Source: a bacterium
Lineage (GTDB): Bacteria; UBA8248
NCBI GenBank assembly: GCA_022828125.1
Contig: JAJEJD010000002.1
Coordinates: 1-64,000, forward strand
Length of the DNA: 64,000 nt
Direction of reading: 5' to 3'
The position numbers were made by a program, and so were the translations under genes. Under the pieces are notes generated by a model. The model was not told the DNA's origin. It made no database searches and saw only the letters and a list, made by a program, of their open reading frames with translations. Positions 22,162 to 29,913 of the stretch are shown here, piece by piece (position 1 is the first letter of the stretch; each line of letters begins with the position of its first letter).

Positions 22162-23382
22162 CTAGGCGAGGTATTTTTCCGAATTTCCCAGGAACTCGAC
22201 TACAGCTTGAGCGTAGACGCTCACGCCTACCGGCAAAGCGTCCTCATCCAGGTCGAACAGATCGGAATGCAACCCGTGAACGAATCCTTTTTCCGGGTTC
22301 GATATGCCCACGCGAAACAAGGCGCCGGGCCGTTTCTCCGCCATATAGGAAAAATCCTCGGCCCCCATGGAAATCGGCATTTCCTCCACGTTCTCCGCGC
22401 CGAGAACCTGAACGCCCGCACTTTCGACGAGTGCAGCGGCGGCCTCGTGGTTTACCAGAACGGGATACCCCGGCGTTATCTCAAGATCGATTTCCACGTC
22501 GAAGGCTTCCGCCACGCCGCGCGCCACGGCCCGTACGCGCTCGGCCAATTTGTCTCTGACCTTCGGATCATGCGTTCGGATAGTGCCTTTTATCCTCGCA
22601 TCACGCGGCATGATGTTGAAAGCAACGCCGGACTCGAAAGTAGTGATGGAGAGGACAGCGGCCTCTAAAGGACCAACGTTTCTGCTCACGATGCTTTGAA
22701 GCGCAGTCACCAGATGGCAGGCGGCCAACAGGGCGTCTTTGGATTTATGGGGATACGCCGCGTGCGAGCTTTCGCCTCTCACGTGAATCTGGAGCCTGTC
22801 GCCCGCCGCCAGCGAAGGCCCTGACCTCTTGCCGATGCGGCCCGCAGGCATATCGGGCCACACGTGCGCGGCAATAAGGAGATCCACCCGCGGTTCTTCC
22901 AGAACGCCTTCTTCCACCATTCTCTTGCCGCCGGCCTTGCCCTCCTCCGCCGGCTGAAAGATGAATTTGACGTTGCCCCCTAAATCATCGAGCCAGTTTT
23001 TGTTCTCGGAAAGCAGGCGAGCCGCGCCCAGCAGCATGCTCACATGGGCGTCGTGACCGCAGGCGTGCATTTTCCCCGGCCGGCGGCTCTTGTAGGGCAC
23101 GTCGTTGGACTCATCGATGGAGAGCGCATCCATATCCGCGCGTATGCCAATTGTGGGGCCGGGGCGCCCTGTCTCGAGCAGGCCGACTACTCCCGTTTCC
23201 GCGATGCCGGCATGCACATCGAGGCCGAAACTCTCGAGGTTCTCCACGATGAGGCGGGAGGTTTCATGCTCCTCATAGCCGAGCTCGGGGTTCATGTGAA
23301 TGGCGCGCCTGGTCTCTGAAAGCCACGGCAGCAGCGCCAGTGAGGCATCCCGTATCGATCGAGACGTGTCGGCAGACTTCAT
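22162..23382 (-). CDS. M20 family amidohydrolase
   Basis: The 406-residue cytosolic metallohydrolase shows MHACGHDAHVSMLLGAA, FIFQPAEEGKAGG with the catalytic glutamates, and SMGAEDFSYMAEKRPG near the C-terminus, all hallmarks of the M20D group (hippurate hydrolase, IAA-amino acid hydrolase, N-acyl-amino acid deacetylase). RADMDAL carries the metal-binding Asp. It probably cleaves an N-acyl amino acid or related amide. ATG 23382 is the only good start. It follows an acyl-CoA synthetase gene after 258 bases with no recognisable feature, and precedes an EamA exporter. Confidence 0.93.
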   Translation of the reverse strand: MKSADTSRSIRDASLALLPWLSETRRAIHMNPELGYEEHETSRLIVENLESFGLDVHAGIAETGVVGLLETGRPGPTIGIRADMDALSIDESNDVPYKSRRPGKMHACGHDAHVSMLLGAARLLSENKNWLDDLGGNVKFIFQPAEEGKAGGKRMVEEGVLEEPRVDLLIAAHVWPDMPAGRIGKRSGPSLAAGDRLQIHVRGESSHAAYPHKSKDALLAACHLVTALQSIVSRNVGPLEAAVLSITTFESGVAFNIMPRDARIKGTIRTHDPKVRDKLAERVRAVARGVAEAFDVEIDLEITPGYPVLVNHEAAAALVESAGVQVLGAENVEEMPISMGAEDFSYMAEKRPGALFRVGISNPEKGFVHGLHSDLFDLDEDALPVGVSVYAQAVVEFLGNSEKYLA

Positions 23383-23640
23383 CGATTCGTTTTCCTCATC
23401 ACCTTGATGTCCTCGCTGAAGTAAATCCGCAAGGGTTCGCTAGACACTCGGGTAATTTGTTCAATGAAGGGTAAATATCACAAACAATGGTGATAAACCA
23501 ATCCGTCGTCCGAACCTGCGCTTATGGGTCTGGGCGGCTATTTCGTTCAGGCATGAATGCTTTGTTCTGCCGCGGGTTTGATAAAGTAGTAACACCACAA
23601 ATTAAAAAACGCACACGGATCTATCACCCACACCAGGCCA

Positions 23641-25317
23641 TCAAAAATCATCCACAGAGAATTCTGGCTGCTCACGCAATATCGCCTTGATGTCCTCTCG
23701 CTTGTGTTTGCGCGTGGTGGTTTTGGGCAACTCCTCTTCAGGCCAGAGGAAAAACCCGGCCACCCTCTTGTAATCCGCGAGATGCGCGCTCAGCCGTTTG
23801 AGTTCGGAATCGGCCAGGGCAGTGCGCTTTTCGTCTTCTTCGGGCAAATCGGCTTCGGGGTCGAGCACCACGACGGCGAACACCTCCTCGCCGCCGCGGG
23901 ATGTTTTGCGCCCGATGACACATACGTCCTGAATCCACTCGCTCTCGAGAAGCTGCTCTTCCACCTCTTCCGGGTAAATATTTTTCCCCGCCTCGGAGAC
24001 GATGACGTTCTTGGAGCGACCGCAAATCGTGAGGTAACCGTCCGCGCCCAGGCGGCCGATGTCTCCGGTATGGAACCATCCATCCCGCAGGACCTCCGCC
24101 GTGAGTTCGGGGTTCTCGAAGTAGCCCTGCATCACGTTCGGGCCGCGTATGAGAATTTCACCCTCTCCCTCGTCCCCACCCTCTACAGGTTCGATCCGCG
24201 CCTCCACCCCCGGAATCGGCGGGCCGACGGTTCCGATTCTGTTCGGCGCTCCCGGTGGATTCGCATGGGTGACGGGGGAGGTTTCCGTCAAGCCATACCC
24301 CTGGAGTACCTCGATCCCCAGAATAAGCAAATCACGAGCGATTTTGGGGTCGAGCGCCGCTCCCCCGCTCGCGAAATAGCGCAGATTCGGGCCGAGATTC
24401 TTCTTGACCTGGGAAAACAGAAGATGCCCGACGCGAAGGCCCATGGACAAGCAAACACCGGAAATCCCGAAAAGCATATTGAAGACGAGTTTCTTCGCCC
24501 CACTCAGCGAATCCACGTTCGAAATGATTCGTTTGTGGATGAGCCGCGCCAGCGCAGGCACCATCAGGCAGATGGTGATGCCTTCGTTTTGCATGGCCTC
24601 CACGAGGAGGCGAGGGTTCAACGATGAGAGGTAATGCACACGGGCGCCGGCCGCAAGCGGTATCAGAAAACCGCCCGTACTCTCGAACATGTGATGAAGC
24701 GGCAGAATCGATAGAAAAACATCGTCCTCCCCGGCAAAGAAAGGTTCAAGTACGGCGCACACGTTGGATGTGATGTTCCCGTGAGAGAGCATCACGCCCT
24801 TGGGCGTTCCCGTCGTTCCCGATGAAAACGACACCAGCGCAAGATCGCCCGGGCCGCGTTCCGCGCCCGGCAGCGCATCCAGTGAAGAGACAGGGTCAAC
24901 TTCTCTCTCTACATCGATTCGCAACACCGCGCAATTCGATGCGAGGCCATCCACCAGCGCACTGGCGCGTTCTTGTTCGCTGGCGTCCGTAAACAGGCAT
25001 ACGGGTCTTGCCTTCTCCAGTATGTTCGCGAGTTCTCCTTCCCTTAGATTCACGTCAAGAGGCACGAGAACGCCGCCGGCGAGCAGCGCGCCGAAATACC
25101 CCACCCCCCATTCGGGTTGATTCGGCGCCAGCAGGGCGACGAAATCGCCAGGTTTCACGCCCGCATCCATTAACTCGCGCGCCAGGGCAGCTGCCTTTCC
25201 GCACAACTGCCTTCTCGTGAGCCTCACCCGGCCGCGTCCTTCTACATCGCCTTCCAGGGCAATCGAATCGGGAAATTTCGCGGTTGTCTCTTTCAGGAGC
25301 TCAATCAGCGTATCCAT
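23641..25317 (-). CDS. Long-chain acyl-CoA synthetase (AMP-binding enzyme)
   Basis: The 558-residue ANL superfamily enzyme carries the P-loop SFSSGTTGTPKGVMLSH, QGYGLTETSPVTHAN, DGWFHTGDIGRLG and the C-terminal VSEAGKNIYPEEVEE and ELPKTTTRKHKRED, whose lysine closes the thioester-forming state. It activates a fatty or aryl acid to the CoA thioester. Length and motif spacing are normal for FadD-type enzymes. The region between it and the M20 gene (258 bases) shows nothing notable. Its substrate is unknown. Confidence 0.93.
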   Translation of the reverse strand: MDTLIELLKETTAKFPDSIALEGDVEGRGRVRLTRRQLCGKAAALARELMDAGVKPGDFVALLAPNQPEWGVGYFGALLAGGVLVPLDVNLREGELANILEKARPVCLFTDASEQERASALVDGLASNCAVLRIDVEREVDPVSSLDALPGAERGPGDLALVSFSSGTTGTPKGVMLSHGNITSNVCAVLEPFFAGEDDVFLSILPLHHMFESTGGFLIPLAAGARVHYLSSLNPRLLVEAMQNEGITICLMVPALARLIHKRIISNVDSLSGAKKLVFNMLFGISGVCLSMGLRVGHLLFSQVKKNLGPNLRYFASGGAALDPKIARDLLILGIEVLQGYGLTETSPVTHANPPGAPNRIGTVGPPIPGVEARIEPVEGGDEGEGEILIRGPNVMQGYFENPELTAEVLRDGWFHTGDIGRLGADGYLTICGRSKNVIVSEAGKNIYPEEVEEQLLESEWIQDVCVIGRKTSRGGEEVFAVVVLDPEADLPEEDEKRTALADSELKRLSAHLADYKRVAGFFLWPEEELPKTTTRKHKREDIKAILREQPEFSVDDF

Positions 25318-25404: not shown

Positions 25405-26196
25405 CTAAATCAACCGTTTCCTGACCTGCCAGGCGGCGAACTCTCCCGCGAAAACCAGGGCGATAATCGCCAACACCAGCACGCCTGATTTTTGCCACTG
25501 AAACTGCTTCACGTATAAAAACACATAAAACCCCAGCCCCCCCGCGCCGACGAGACCCAGAATTGTGGAATCGCGAAGGTTCATCTCGAAACGTATGGCC
25601 AGATGCGCGACCATCTGCGGCAAAACCTGGGGAATGAGGCCGTGTTGAATGATCTGAAGGGAAGAGGCGCCCGTACCCTGCAATGCAAGCAGGGGTTTCG
25701 GGTCGGTCGCCTCGATTTCCTCCGCCACGAACCGGCCGAGCACTCCGACGGAGTGCACCGCCAGCGCCAACACGCCGGGAAAAGGTCCGAGCCCCACGGC
25801 GGAGACGAACAACAACGCGAGGAGCAGCAGGGGAATGGAGCGGACGAATGCCATGAACGCCTTGATGGGCAGGTGCACCCAGATAGGCGTCCAGTTCGAC
25901 GCCGCAAGCACGCCCAGAGGATAGGCGAACAACGCGCCCAGAAAAGTGCCCGCAATGGTGGTTTGCAGCGTTTCGATAGCCGAGGTCAGCAAAACGTCCC
26001 AGACTGACCAATCCGGCGGCGTCATCCGGCCAAAGAAGTGAAAGAGTTGGGGAATCCCGCGCCAGAATTGCCCGGGTGAAAACTCAGAACCCTGAAAAGA
26101 CCAGAATAAGAGTGCGCTAACCGCCAGGAAGAGGCTGGCCTTGCCAGCCATACGGCCAGGTGAAAGCGCTTCTGCTTGCTCTCGTTCCGTTGCCAT
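25405..26196 (-). CDS. phnE: Phosphonate-type ABC transporter permease (PhnE family)
   Basis: The 263-residue inner-membrane protein has about six helices. The SAIETLQTTIAGTFLGALFA segment opens the permease domain, and GASSLQIIQHGLIPQ is the EAA loop that docks on the ATPase. It is part of a phnD-phnC-phnE order. Its start region overlaps the phnC 3' end by 80 bases; a Met at 26151 would shorten this. Known relatives import phosphonate, phosphite or phosphate; the cargo here may differ given the operon's unusual leader gene. Confidence 0.9.
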   Translation of the reverse strand: MATEREQAEALSPGRMAGKASLFLAVSALLFWSFQGSEFSPGQFWRGIPQLFHFFGRMTPPDWSVWDVLLTSAIETLQTTIAGTFLGALFAYPLGVLAASNWTPIWVHLPIKAFMAFVRSIPLLLLALLFVSAVGLGPFPGVLALAVHSVGVLGRFVAEEIEATDPKPLLALQGTGASSLQIIQHGLIPQVLPQMVAHLAIRFEMNLRDSTILGLVGAGGLGFYVFLYVKQFQWQKSGVLVLAIIALVFAGEFAAWQVRKRLI

Positions 26197-26962
26197 TCAC
26201 GACTCCGTTCGTTCCCATGAACTCGTAGATTTCAGATATCCTATCATTCGAGAGGGAATCCGAAGAACCATCCCACATGATTTTTCCGTTTTTCATCGCG
26301 AGGATTCTATCCGCATATTTCCGCGCAAGCTCGGGAAGGTGGAGACTCATGATGAGCGTGAGTTTATAGGCGTCGCATACTGACACGAGAAGATCCATGA
26401 TGTCCTCGGCCAATGCCGGGTCCAGGCTCGAAACGGGTTCGTCTGCCAGCAGAATCGTCGGCTCCTGTGCCAACGCCCGGGCAATGGCCACGCGCTGCTG
26501 CTCCCCGCCAGAGAGTGTGCGGGCGAAACGGCGTTGCTTGTCCTCGAGATGCACCTCGTGAATGGCCTGTGCGCAGATTTGTAAATCGCGCTGCGAACAG
26601 ATTCCCAACATGCTTTTCAACAAAGACACATAGCCGAGTCTTCCGTGATAGACGTTTTGCCAAACGGTTTCCCGGCCTATCAAATCGAAATGCTGATGTA
26701 TCATGCCGATATGCCGATGGTGGGTTTTCATCTTATGCGTATCCTTGATCGGGAAAACATCACCCATCACGACCACCTTACCTTTCTGGCAAGGCACATA
26801 GCCTTTCAGCATTCTCATGAGAGTCGTCTTGCCGGAACCGCTGTTGCCGATGATAGCCACTCTCTCTCCACGAGAGACCTCGAGATGCTCGAGAGAAAGA
26901 ATCGTCCGCCCCTCCATCTCAACGCGTGCATCTTCGATTTGGATGACCACCTCTTTCGACAT
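26117..26962 (-). CDS. phnC: Phosphonate-type ABC transporter ATP-binding protein (PhnC family)
   Basis: The 281-residue ATPase has Walker [11 protein letters not shown], the Q-loop region [11 protein letters not shown], signature [15 protein letters not shown], Walker [13 protein letters not shown] and the switch His in MSLHLP. It powers the importer formed with the PhnE-like permease. It begins three bases after phnD stops. The C-terminal 30 residues beyond the normal domain end overlap the phnE reading frame, which suggests tight translational coupling. Confidence 0.93.
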
Positions 26963-26965
26963 TTT

Positions 26966-27889
26966 CTACTCCTTTAGAAAACCATACTTACGAGCCATAT
27001 CGGCAACCGATTTATAACGGCTGTGACCGACCCTGACGTAACCATCCGTTCCGTATAGAGCCCGCAGCAAACCGCGATTCTGGGGCCGGTTCATCTTCAT
27101 CATCGCTACGATGAATTTTTCCCTGATTTCAGGGGCCAGCCCTTTGCGCACCACTACATTGTGACTGGGAATTCTGGCCGACTGCTCAATGGCGACGACT
27201 TGATCGCGCTGCTCTGGGCGCAAGAGGTTGAGCGCGTATTGGCTGACGCCGGCGGCGTCGACGAAGCCGCCGACCATCGAGTTGATCGCCTGCTGATCCC
27301 CGCCTGCGAAATAAACTCTCCGGAAAAATCCGCCCTCGGGCTTTTCCAGTCCCCCATTCACCAGACCAGTGCGAATAAAAATATCATGGGGGTACATGAA
27401 CCCCGAACTCGAAATGGGGTCGACATAGGCAATAGTCTTTCCCTTGAGATCGGATAATTTCTTGATGCCGCTTTCCTTGCGAACAAAAATCCTCGAATAG
27501 TAGTAGGGCTTTCCGTCGTATATTTCCCCGAGTACCGCCTCGACTCCCGAATACTTGTTTGCCAGGACATAGGGCAGCGGAGACATGAAGCTTACGTCCG
27601 CCTTTTTCGAGATCATGGCCTCTACGGCGGCTGAATAATTCAATGTGATGAAATAGCGGACTTTCCGCCCCATCTCTTTTTCCAGGAAATTCATCGCCGG
27701 CTTCACGTTGCTGATGAGTTTCTCGGGATTCTCGAGTGGAATGAACGCGACCCGAAGCTCCTTATCGCCCGCGTGAACGGGAACCGAAGCGAACAAGAGC
27801 GCGGAGAAAACGAGGAGAACCACCACTGGTAGAAACACCCCCGGCGCTTTCGGCGATAATACTCGGATGAAACGCATGACTCTGCTCAT
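26966..27889 (-). CDS. phnD: Phosphate/phosphite/phosphonate-type substrate-binding protein (PhnD family)
   Basis: The 307-residue protein begins with a signal peptide: a hydrophobic run around residues 17-37 ending VPVHAG, giving a periplasmic mature form that opens DKELRVAFIPLENPEKL. PhnD features include KADVSFMSPLPYVLANKY, LKGKTIAYVDPISSSGF and VNGG. It captures a ligand for the adjacent ABC importer. The start overlaps the upstream peroxidase gene stop by four bases (ATGA), so the two are made together. That link to a di-haem protein leaves the true ligand open. Confidence 0.9.
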   Translation of the reverse strand: MSRVMRFIRVLSPKAPGVFLPVVVLLVFSALLFASVPVHAGDKELRVAFIPLENPEKLISNVKPAMNFLEKEMGRKVRYFITLNYSAAVEAMISKKADVSFMSPLPYVLANKYSGVEAVLGEIYDGKPYYYSRIFVRKESGIKKLSDLKGKTIAYVDPISSSGFMYPHDIFIRTGLVNGGLEKPEGGFFRRVYFAGGDQQAINSMVGGFVDAAGVSQYALNLLRPEQRDQVVAIEQSARIPSHNVVVRKGLAPEIREKFIVAMMKMNRPQNRGLLRALYGTDGYVRVGHSRYKSVADMARKYGFLKE

Positions 27890-29847
27890 TTCAGTTTGTC
27901 CTGGTTTTTCTGATAAAGCGTGTGATAAGCCGCGATTTTATGGTCGGTCATTTTCACGTCGCCGGCGAGATGAGCTCGCAAAGCCTCATTGAGTTTCTTT
28001 TCCATCTCATTGAGAATCGGCAGATTTTCCTTGTTCTGAACGTCCCATTTGTGGGCCTGTACTTCACGCACCACTGTTTTCAATAAGACGGAGATTAACT
28101 CTCTTTTCTTTCTCTGTTTCAAACGGTCATAAGTAGAGAGAAAGAACTTGAACTCCTCCAACTCCGACTCCAGTGTGTAAACTGTATCCTCAATCCCCTG
28201 GACGCCATCCCCCACGGCTTCGACGTAGGCCGTGAGGTCGTCAATATCTTCTCGACTCAGCCCCAACTTGAATTGCGTGTTAAACCATTCATTCACCGCC
28301 CGCAGGGTGGGCAGGCTCCCGTCGTGGAAATATGGGCCCGTGAATTTTGACGAGAGTAGTGTGGGCGTATCCAGACCTCCCACGTGGAAGGGTTGGTTCT
28401 CTCCTCCCGTGGAACCAATGTTGTGGCGTTTGTGGTCGACGAAATTCGCGTTCGGGATGTGACAACTCGCGCAACTCATGCCGCCCATCATCTGCGGGAA
28501 TTTCCGGTCAAATATCTTCTCGCCCCGAAGCGCTGCTTCTGAAACCTTACCGGGATTGAGCTTCCCGCTTTTTTTCAGCTTCGGGTTAGGCAAAAACTCG
28601 AACTCGTTCATGTATGCGATCATCCCGTCCATGACCATCGGATCAGGCTCCGGCCCATTGAACTCATTCACGATGACGTTGCGGACGAATTCCCTGAGCG
28701 AAGCGAAACGCCCGTTTCTGCCATAAGGGGCCGTAAAGCGAATGCCCCGCAAGTCGGGTGTGTCCAATGGATCGTGCAGGCCATTGTTGGCGTGCCCTGC
28801 GAAGAAACTGTTCGACACGTCCATCCCGCCCTTTTCCCTGGAAAGTCCCGGGATGAAGAATTTGGGATTCGTCACTCCCTTGTTGTGGCAAGTGTTGCAA
28901 CTTATACCGAGGCTACGCGCGGGTTCACCGAAAATCTCCGCGCTGTCGAAAGCCATATCACCCAGGGCGATGAGAAAGGTTTCCGCCTCGCTTGCTCCGC
29001 GCTCCGCCATGCCGAGAATTTGTCTGGGGCGCGGGAGTTGCTTGTTGATATCGGAGCCGGGTGGCAAGCGCCACGGCACTTTCGCTGATTCAATATACGT
29101 TTCGCTCGTCTTGGGACGGGGTAAAAGTCTGTGTTCTTTTCCGGCCCGAAAGCCGGAAAAATTCGAATGAAAATACCGGCGAATAAACGCGATGCTCTCG
29201 CGAATTTTCTCCGGAGTCATCGGCCTTGCGCCGATGCCCATCACGCCCGCAACCCCAAGGTTAGAATTCGCTTCGAGCCAATGGACCTGCAGCCTCTTCC
29301 ACCCTTCCGGATCCAGATGCGGCAAGGCATCAGCGAAAGCCTGAGATATTCTGCGCGCTTCATTCAGGCGGCTTTTCACCTCCTCTCTGTTCGAATCCGC
29401 TTTGATCCCGTCCAAGCGAGAGATTAACAACGAGGCGACTCCCCGCGTCACCAAGGAGAAAGCCAAGCGACTTCCGTTTTTGCGCGCGACGACCATATCC
29501 GGCTCTTCATCGCCTGTCGCCACGGGCTGGGCTACACGCCTGGCAATGGCCAGACCTTCCGAGAACTTCTTCGCACCAGGAGAATTCACCCGCTTCAACG
29601 CCTCTTCGACACGCTTCAAATCGGACCACACCTGCGGCCACAGCACGGGATTCAGATTCAAGATGAAACTGACTCGACGATAACTTTCGGCAACGGGGTG
29701 TAATTCTTCGGGGGGTACGATGTGCGCCGAGGTCGGGCTGAAACTCGTCATCACCAACCCGGCAGCCAAAAGCCATGCCGGCATCGTCAAGGAATTTTTC
29801 ACACGCAGAGCAAGCCTCGCCCCGGGCGCTATGAGGCTGCATAACAT
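27886..29847 (-). CDS. Di-haem cytochrome c peroxidase/MauG-type protein with long N-terminal region
   Basis: The 653-residue protein has an N-terminal hydrophobic signal segment (around residues 23-41, ending TSAH). Two c-haem sites are visible: CNTCH near residue 317 and CASCH near residue 458. The region between and after contains GIRFTAPYGRNGRFASLREFV, TPTLLSSKFTGPYFHDGS and LTAYVEA, typical of the di-haem cytochrome c peroxidase family. The first 250 residues are not part of the usual enzyme and look helical. It would act in the periplasm on peroxide or as an oxidase of another protein. It leads the phnDCE-like operon, with TGGAG upstream of ATG 29847. Confidence 0.9.
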   Translation of the reverse strand: MLCSLIAPGARLALRVKNSLTMPAWLLAAGLVMTSFSPTSAHIVPPEELHPVAESYRRVSFILNLNPVLWPQVWSDLKRVEEALKRVNSPGAKKFSEGLAIARRVAQPVATGDEEPDMVVARKNGSRLAFSLVTRGVASLLISRLDGIKADSNREEVKSRLNEARRISQAFADALPHLDPEGWKRLQVHWLEANSNLGVAGVMGIGARPMTPEKIRESIAFIRRYFHSNFSGFRAGKEHRLLPRPKTSETYIESAKVPWRLPPGSDINKQLPRPRQILGMAERGASEAETFLIALGDMAFDSAEIFGEPARSLGISCNTCHNKGVTNPKFFIPGLSREKGGMDVSNSFFAGHANNGLHDPLDTPDLRGIRFTAPYGRNGRFASLREFVRNVIVNEFNGPEPDPMVMDGMIAYMNEFEFLPNPKLKKSGKLNPGKVSEAALRGEKIFDRKFPQMMGGMSCASCHIPNANFVDHKRHNIGSTGGENQPFHVGGLDTPTLLSSKFTGPYFHDGSLPTLRAVNEWFNTQFKLGLSREDIDDLTAYVEAVGDGVQGIEDTVYTLESELEEFKFFLSTYDRLKQRKKRELISVLLKTVVREVQAHKWDVQNKENLPILNEMEKKLNEALRAHLAGDVKMTDHKIAAYHTLYQKNQDKLK

Positions 29848-29883: not shown

Positions 29884-29913
29884 ATTTTATTGGCATTCAA
29901 AAAATAAAGTCAA
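29884..29913 (-). promoter_or_regulatory. Sigma-70-type promoter of the peroxidase-phnDCE operon
   Basis: On the minus strand, TTGACT is followed by an 18-base spacer and TAAAAT, a good match to the -35 and -10 consensus. The -10 lies about 37 bases before the ATG at 29847, leaving room for a short leader with a TGGAG ribosome binding site. Confidence 0.7.

Follow-up and report, generated by a model that had tools for sequence, protein, structure and literature searches.

A four-gene operon in a 64,000-nucleotide stretch of bacterial DNA (the window) probably encodes a manganese-responsive transition-metal uptake system, in which a di-haem enzyme is combined with an ABC importer. The unity of the operon and its linkage to MntR-type regulators are well supported, and its conservation, its association with a regulator and operator, and the substitution of pocket residues in its binding protein are supported. 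From these features we infer that the metal is manganese, possibly iron, that it flows inward, that MntR control takes the form of repression, and what part the haem enzyme plays.

The peroxidase and importer genes form one operon

Open reading frame calls together with Pfam and NCBIfam profiles place genes for a peroxidase, PhnD, PhnC and PhnE in that order on the minus strand throughout, tightly packed (Table 1). The start of phnD overlaps the stop of the peroxidase gene (ATGA), as described in the first-pass annotation, which had recognized a peroxidase with two CxxCH sites at the head of a phnDCE-like operon. Because the phnE reading frame overlaps phnC by 80 nt, its start may be overcalled by about that length, with the true start lying downstream.

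Table 1. Features of the operon and its surroundings in the window
Feature	Position	Strand	Remarks
AMP-dependent acyl-CoA ligase	23641..25317	-	after phnE; candidate member by linkage
PhnE-like permease	25405..26196	-	TIGR01097 265.7 bits, above cut-off of 216.7
PhnC-like ABC ATPase	26117..26962	-	ABC_tran; TIGR02315 240.1 bits, below equivalog cut-off of 266.1
PhnD/PtxB-superfamily substrate-binding protein	26966..27889	-	Phosphonate-bd; pocket Y130, D198, H243 and DPISSSG loop replace the phosphonate set
Di-haem c peroxidase-like enzyme	27886..29847	-	653 aa; CCP_MauG E=4.7e-12; two CxxCH
Second CxxCH haem site, residues 459-463	28459..28473	-	invariant, 38 sequences
First CxxCH haem site, residues 317-321	28885..28899	-	invariant, 38 sequences
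Sigma-70-like promoter, TTGACT-18-TAAAAT	29884..29913	-	next to operator; 10/12 matches, consensus match only
Candidate palindromic operator, TTTAGACATGTCTAAA	29931..29946		perfect; about 85-100 nt upstream of peroxidase start

Directly after phnE lie genes for the acyl-CoA ligase and an M20 amidohydrolase (window 22162-25317; also L049-L057). The two are kept in most operon-bearing members of the Nitrospinota family, with one genus as the exception for the ligase, and were not seen in the other phyla. We rejected amtB-glnK as part of the operon, which it adjoins in the window's own genus only. A terminator scan listed no terminator in the interval between glnK and the peroxidase gene; by eye, a GC-rich hairpin followed by T can be seen there.

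A profile search of bacterial and archaeal genomes gave 178 relatives, of which 80 were kept as loci. The order enzyme-phnD-phnC-phnE recurs in nearly all kept loci with enough sequence, L083 being one exception. These loci come from about eight phylum-level groups (Nitrospinota, Planctomycetota, Verrucomicrobiota, Acidobacteriota, Hydrogenedentota, Sumerlaeota, Desulfobacterota/Dadabacteria and Alphaproteobacteria); the search for the same gene order in other genomes, proposed with the first-pass annotation, succeeded in many phyla. Conservation on this scale goes far beyond what chance would give. Within the window's own family, 11 of 18 genomes keep the enzyme, and each of the ten relatives read has phnD and phnE next to the enzyme gene. 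Full-length enzyme homologues (37-43% identity) also occur on marine alphaproteobacterial plasmids, where all ten loci read have the four genes in this order, with mntR divergent just upstream. No relative was found on viral contigs.

The same PhnD encoded with phn or ptx genes and separated from the peroxidase would speak against a common function, and we looked for such a case. The plasmid PhnD relatives split into 42 at 45.7-49.6% identity and a lower set at no more than 34%. In the upper set the peroxidase is present in 10 of 10 loci read; in the lower set it is absent from all three read, one of which lies beside a phosphonate dehydrogenase gene. The idea that peroxidase and importer are one functional unit is supported.

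On plasmids such as L030, L045, L047 and L048, several of them conjugative, the operon sits within islands of metal-resistance and cell-envelope genes, among them ZIP, P-type ATPase, lspA, lnt and L,D-transpeptidase genes. Among Acidobacteriota, Planctomycetota and Verrucomicrobiota, several loci (L059, L060, L066, L070) have genes for Phenol_MetA_deg outer-membrane barrels that adjoin the operon or lie in its region; these proteins possibly provide an outer-membrane route for the substrate.

The enzyme carries helical domains at both ends of a di-haem core

The first gene product belongs to the CCP_MauG family, with a PF03150 score of 47.2 bits against a cut-off of 25.6 and two CxxCH sites. 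Its N terminus resembles a signal peptide. The CCP_MauG core spans about residues 277-550, and in a predicted model this haem core matches bCCP structures (3o5c, Z 11.5; 1iqc, Z 11.3). The best NCBIfam match is the MbnH profile, far below its cut-off: the MauG and MbnH equivalogs score 34.7 and 49.5 bits against 443.85 and 362.85.

Extra residues had been noticed at the N terminus, and about 230, mostly helical (helical part about 51-230), are indeed present. That description covered one end of a protein extended at both, the second extension being a C-terminal helical bundle at about 553-653. The suggestion that the N-terminal part may bind PhnD gained no support. Most of the helical parts at either end are modelled confidently, with block means mostly 80-98. 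Among the matches listed, structural searches with the model assigned no fold to these extensions; generic helical bundles over residues 553-653 filled the list. An Imelysin/EfeO identity was rejected on insignificant Foldseek matches (E 1.8-5; EfeO E 1.8 and above).

Across the 38 aligned sequences, W70, W190, W521, Y56 and Y225 are near-invariant. With these aromatics, a single conserved acidic residue (D179, 34/38) and zero conserved histidines, the composition of the N-terminal part argues weakly that it is not itself a metal site. In a tentative profile alignment, the column that we take to hold the canonical Met ligand of the second bCCP haem falls on W521/F522.

The binding protein has lost the phosphonate-contacting histidine

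The window PhnD passes the cut-off of TIGR01098, the phosphate/phosphite/phosphonate subfamily profile, and scores 172 bits on the PhnD equivalog TIGR03431, below its cut-off of 261.1. Its AlphaFold model (pLDDT 88.8) matches ArrX and PtxB at Z about 28 and transferrin lobes at Z about 24; on this predicted structure, the likeness is one of common fold and shows no function. PtxB is the closest solved sequence, at 27% identity in the structural alignment.

The pocket residues point away from phosphonate. The column of the phosphonate-contacting histidine (198) holds Asp or Tyr in 40 of 40 aligned members, and all 40 have an invariant histidine at 243 within a PSHxVVAR motif; three ordinary PhnD controls keep His198 and lack His243. 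The oxyanion loop contains Asp or Glu in 26 of the 40 members, with SSS, SES or DMS as variants, and Ser in the window protein (DPISSSG). The GxH pocket histidine and Ser-Thr-Ser loop of phosphonate binders are therefore not the set found in the operon PhnDs, which share Tyr130 with them. As the first-pass annotation had suggested, the ligand is probably unrelated to phosphonate.

His243 falls in what we take to be the column of transferrin H249; the transferrin columns were mapped partly by hand, and the match is a lead, not proof. At the positions presumed on this mapping to correspond to Asp63, Tyr95, Tyr188 and His249, the members have Y130 and H243 in 40/40, Y198 in 17 and D103 in 9. The window protein presumably presents S103, Y130, D198 and H243 at these columns. 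A phmmer search with a C-terminal fragment, intended for the transferrin alignment, found no transferrin.

Unlike the window protein, PhnDs of alphaproteobacterial loci (L088, L095, L101, L105, L106, L113, L114, L118-L120, L122 and L128) begin with twin-arginine-like (RR) signals, a sequence feature that suggests Tat export.

MntR-type regulators and a predicted operator accompany the operon

Of the 80 genome loci, 46 have a manganese-type MntR/DtxR gene next to the operon, as do all ten plasmid loci read. This gene is placed in three ways (divergent, co-directional upstream, or downstream), and the enzyme tree requires a minimum of seven gains or losses of it as a neighbour. All 18 operon-linked regulators aligned carry the ExxEH metal site of the MntR type and not the Cys of DtxR/IdeR; the alignment included a row for B. 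subtilis MntR. For one operon-linked regulator, the best PDB match is E. coli MntR (E=1.4e-39). Among loci with no adjacent MntR, mntH lies nearby in Bosea and Methylobacterium, and a Fur-family gene is found in Bosea and L113. In L071 the gene after the operon encodes a binding protein of the TroA/ZnuA family.

The window locus has no adjacent mntR. Its genome encodes one MntR-like regulator, at another site (C4), for which the best NCBIfam match is the Thermus MntR model, below cut-off. No phyletic link between this gene and the operon was found, and family genomes without the operon carry it too. A Cys-type DtxR relative (G000:C8:29200-29755; L133:7201-7755) lies beside genes resembling an Fe(III) ABC importer and has AT-rich palindromes of its own. 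This iron-type gene was rejected as the operon's regulator, as the palindromes near it differ from the operon's. Either product, C4 or C8, is at most a putative reader of the window palindrome.

Upstream of the peroxidase gene, TTTAGACATGTCTAAA is the sole copy in the 3.9-Mb genome with up to two mismatches allowed, and a perfect palindrome of this kind is unexpected by chance. Similar palindromes lie upstream of the enzyme gene in Nitrospinota loci that have no adjacent mntR. In alphaproteobacteria, AAGTTAGCCATGTCTAACTT-like palindromes occupy the interval between mntR and the enzyme gene, and TTTAGACATGTCTAAA resembles them. Of 90 loci, 53 carry TTAGN6CTAA in the upstream 200 nt, where mononucleotide shuffles predict 0.33; as many loci are close relatives, these are not independent observations. 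Among 14 Rhodobacterales genomes, 9 contain a single site matching a stricter pattern, and in L088 its coordinates place it at the operon. MntR control is thus indicated by the palindrome, a predicted operator, in the window and by the gene itself in relatives. A metal signal common to peroxidase and importer, one of the explanations offered in the first-pass annotation, is probable given MntR adjacency, the shared operator and the ligand-residue swap; we consider a metal ion a likelier ligand than a non-metal compound needing periplasmic oxidation, the other possibility offered there.

Metal and phosphonate genes elsewhere in the genome

The window genome contains no C-P lyase PhnJ (no PF06007 match), hence no sign of phosphonate use by that route, and no phn or ptx genes are among the called neighbours of the operon, in agreement with the earlier reading that C-P lyase and phosphite dehydrogenase genes are missing. 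We found no Nramp gene in 18 family genomes, including that of the window, and no ZIP gene in the window genome. The operon proteins contain neither PF01566 nor PF01297 and so do not belong to the MntH (Nramp) or ZnuA-type manganese importers. The genome's two ZnuA proteins, and with them its ZnuABC, are probably zinc-type, because they are His-rich and their genes have znuBC-like genes and one of the Fur family as neighbours. These transporter absences, in one draft at 97% completeness, are suggestive only. In a family genome lacking the operon, two frames with DtxR-like stretches lie close to a ZnuA-type gene (G012:C41:6780-11300); this locus may be a substitute metal importer.

A model for metal uptake and its alternatives

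In the model that we favor, a metal-bound MntR/DtxR-family repressor would occupy the palindrome ahead of the peroxidase gene and keep the operon off when metal is plentiful; under scarcity the four genes would be expressed together. The PhnD-like protein, its pocket having changed toward that of transferrin (Tyr, Asp or Tyr, His, and a carboxylate in many members), would bind a metal ion and pass it to the PhnC/PhnE importer. In the periplasm, the di-haem enzyme would most likely act on the metal, for example using peroxide to oxidize Mn(II) to Mn(III) and thereby letting the PhnD pocket hold it, much as in oxidase-coupled iron uptake; the enzyme's target may alternatively be a protein partner. 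The full scheme, in which periplasmic Mn(II) oxidation by a di-haem enzyme, transferrin-like capture, PhnCE-type import and MntR control make up an undescribed class of manganese importer in many phyla and on marine plasmids, is one we advance only tentatively.

Several observations weigh against manganese uptake. The window locus has no mntR of its own, the C4 gene is not confined to operon-bearing genomes, and PhnD is still within the TIGR01098 subfamily, keeping Ser in its oxyanion loop and a Tyr130 common to phosphonate binders. The presumed transferrin columns are partly hand-mapped. General metal-resistance genes surround the plasmid copies, which would suit detoxification, and some DtxR-family regulators sense iron. 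This last point leads to an improbable alternative: Fe(III) uptake, in which the di-haem enzyme would be a ferroxidase and the adjacent regulator would sense iron or both metals. The mapped pocket is like that of transferrin, which binds Fe(III), and Fur-family genes adjoin the operon in L106 and L113, yet the aligned operon-linked regulators have ExxEH and not Cys, mntH genes are neighbours, and the window genome keeps a separate Cys-type DtxR gene, with different palindromes, beside an Fe(III)-uptake-like ABC system.

The remaining alternatives concern the enzyme or the ligand. Metal import with a different task for the enzyme is rather unlikely: a MauG/MbnH/CorB-like protein would create the metal site by oxidizing a Trp or Tyr, either in the binding protein or in the enzyme's own extra domain. 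MauG-like enzymes have been proposed to make the metal-binding kynurenine of CorA/MopE (PMC3912023), and the MbnH match and near-invariant aromatics fit such a role; however, the window PhnD contains no Trp, which rules out a CorA-type Trp change in it and leaves Tyr or the enzyme itself as target. Another account, about as improbable as iron uptake, makes the enzyme a simple H2O2 peroxidase and the operon a module for stress or metal resistance that is induced along with metal genes. The di-haem peroxidase fold and the P-type ATPase, ZIP and CDF genes near plasmid copies fit that account, but the enzyme is tied to the importer across phyla in which no adjoining resistance genes were seen, PhnCE are import-type ABC parts, and the presumed Met haem ligand aligns, tentatively, with W521/F522. 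Least plausible, and very much so, is the database annotation of an ordinary importer of phosphite, phosphonate, phosphate or a related oxyanion with an incidental peroxidase. TIGR01098 and TIGR01097 scores above cut-off, PtxB and ArrX as best structural matches (Z about 28) and the Ser-rich loop of the window protein speak for it; against it stand a pocket histidine lost, and a new one gained, in 40 of 40 members while controls differ, the missing PhnJ, and the linkage to MntR and an operator.

If manganese-responsive metal uptake is the function, a phosphonate-transport label leads phosphorus-cycle surveys to miscount the operon and metal-acquisition surveys to miss it. A manganese importer would fill the missing uptake route in Nitrospinota-type genomes that have no Nramp or ZIP, and would link periplasmic haem redox chemistry to manganese acquisition, making directly testable why bacteria oxidize manganese. 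In Pseudomonas putida GB-1, intracellular manganese is higher in the Mn-oxidizing wild type than in non-oxidizing mutants (PMC3798386). A search of the open-access literature found no description of the operon.

Comparison with known systems

The operon resembles the PhnDCE/PtxABC phosphonate-phosphite importers in the fold of its ABC parts and in gene content, and its PhnE passes TIGR01097. Unlike them, it is led by a di-haem enzyme, is accompanied by an MntR-type regulator in place of phn/ptx genes, and has a PhnD with Asp or Tyr for the phosphonate histidine and a new invariant histidine. With bacterial di-haem peroxidases and MauG it shares two CxxCH sites and a bCCP core; it differs in its helical domains at both ends, its scores below the MauG/MbnH cut-offs, its fixed ABC-importer partner and, tentatively, a Trp/Phe in the presumed column of the Met haem ligand. 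MntR-type control recalls MntH and SitABCD/MntABC, and mntH or TroA-type genes adjoin some copies, whereas the operon itself has no Nramp or ZnuA-type gene and instead encodes a haem enzyme and a binding protein of the PhnD type.

In oxidase-coupled iron uptake (EfeUOB, FtrABCD), a periplasmic redox enzyme is paired with a metal permease, and the operon would do likewise; its proteins include no EfeU or cupredoxin, and the EfeO matches are insignificant. In CorA/CorB and MopE/SACCP, the genes for a MauG-like di-haem protein and a metal-binding protein are transcribed together and controlled by metal (PMC3912023). Those systems, in contrast, use copper and have no ABC importer, and the Trp proposed as the target of modification has no counterpart in the Trp-less binding protein of the window.
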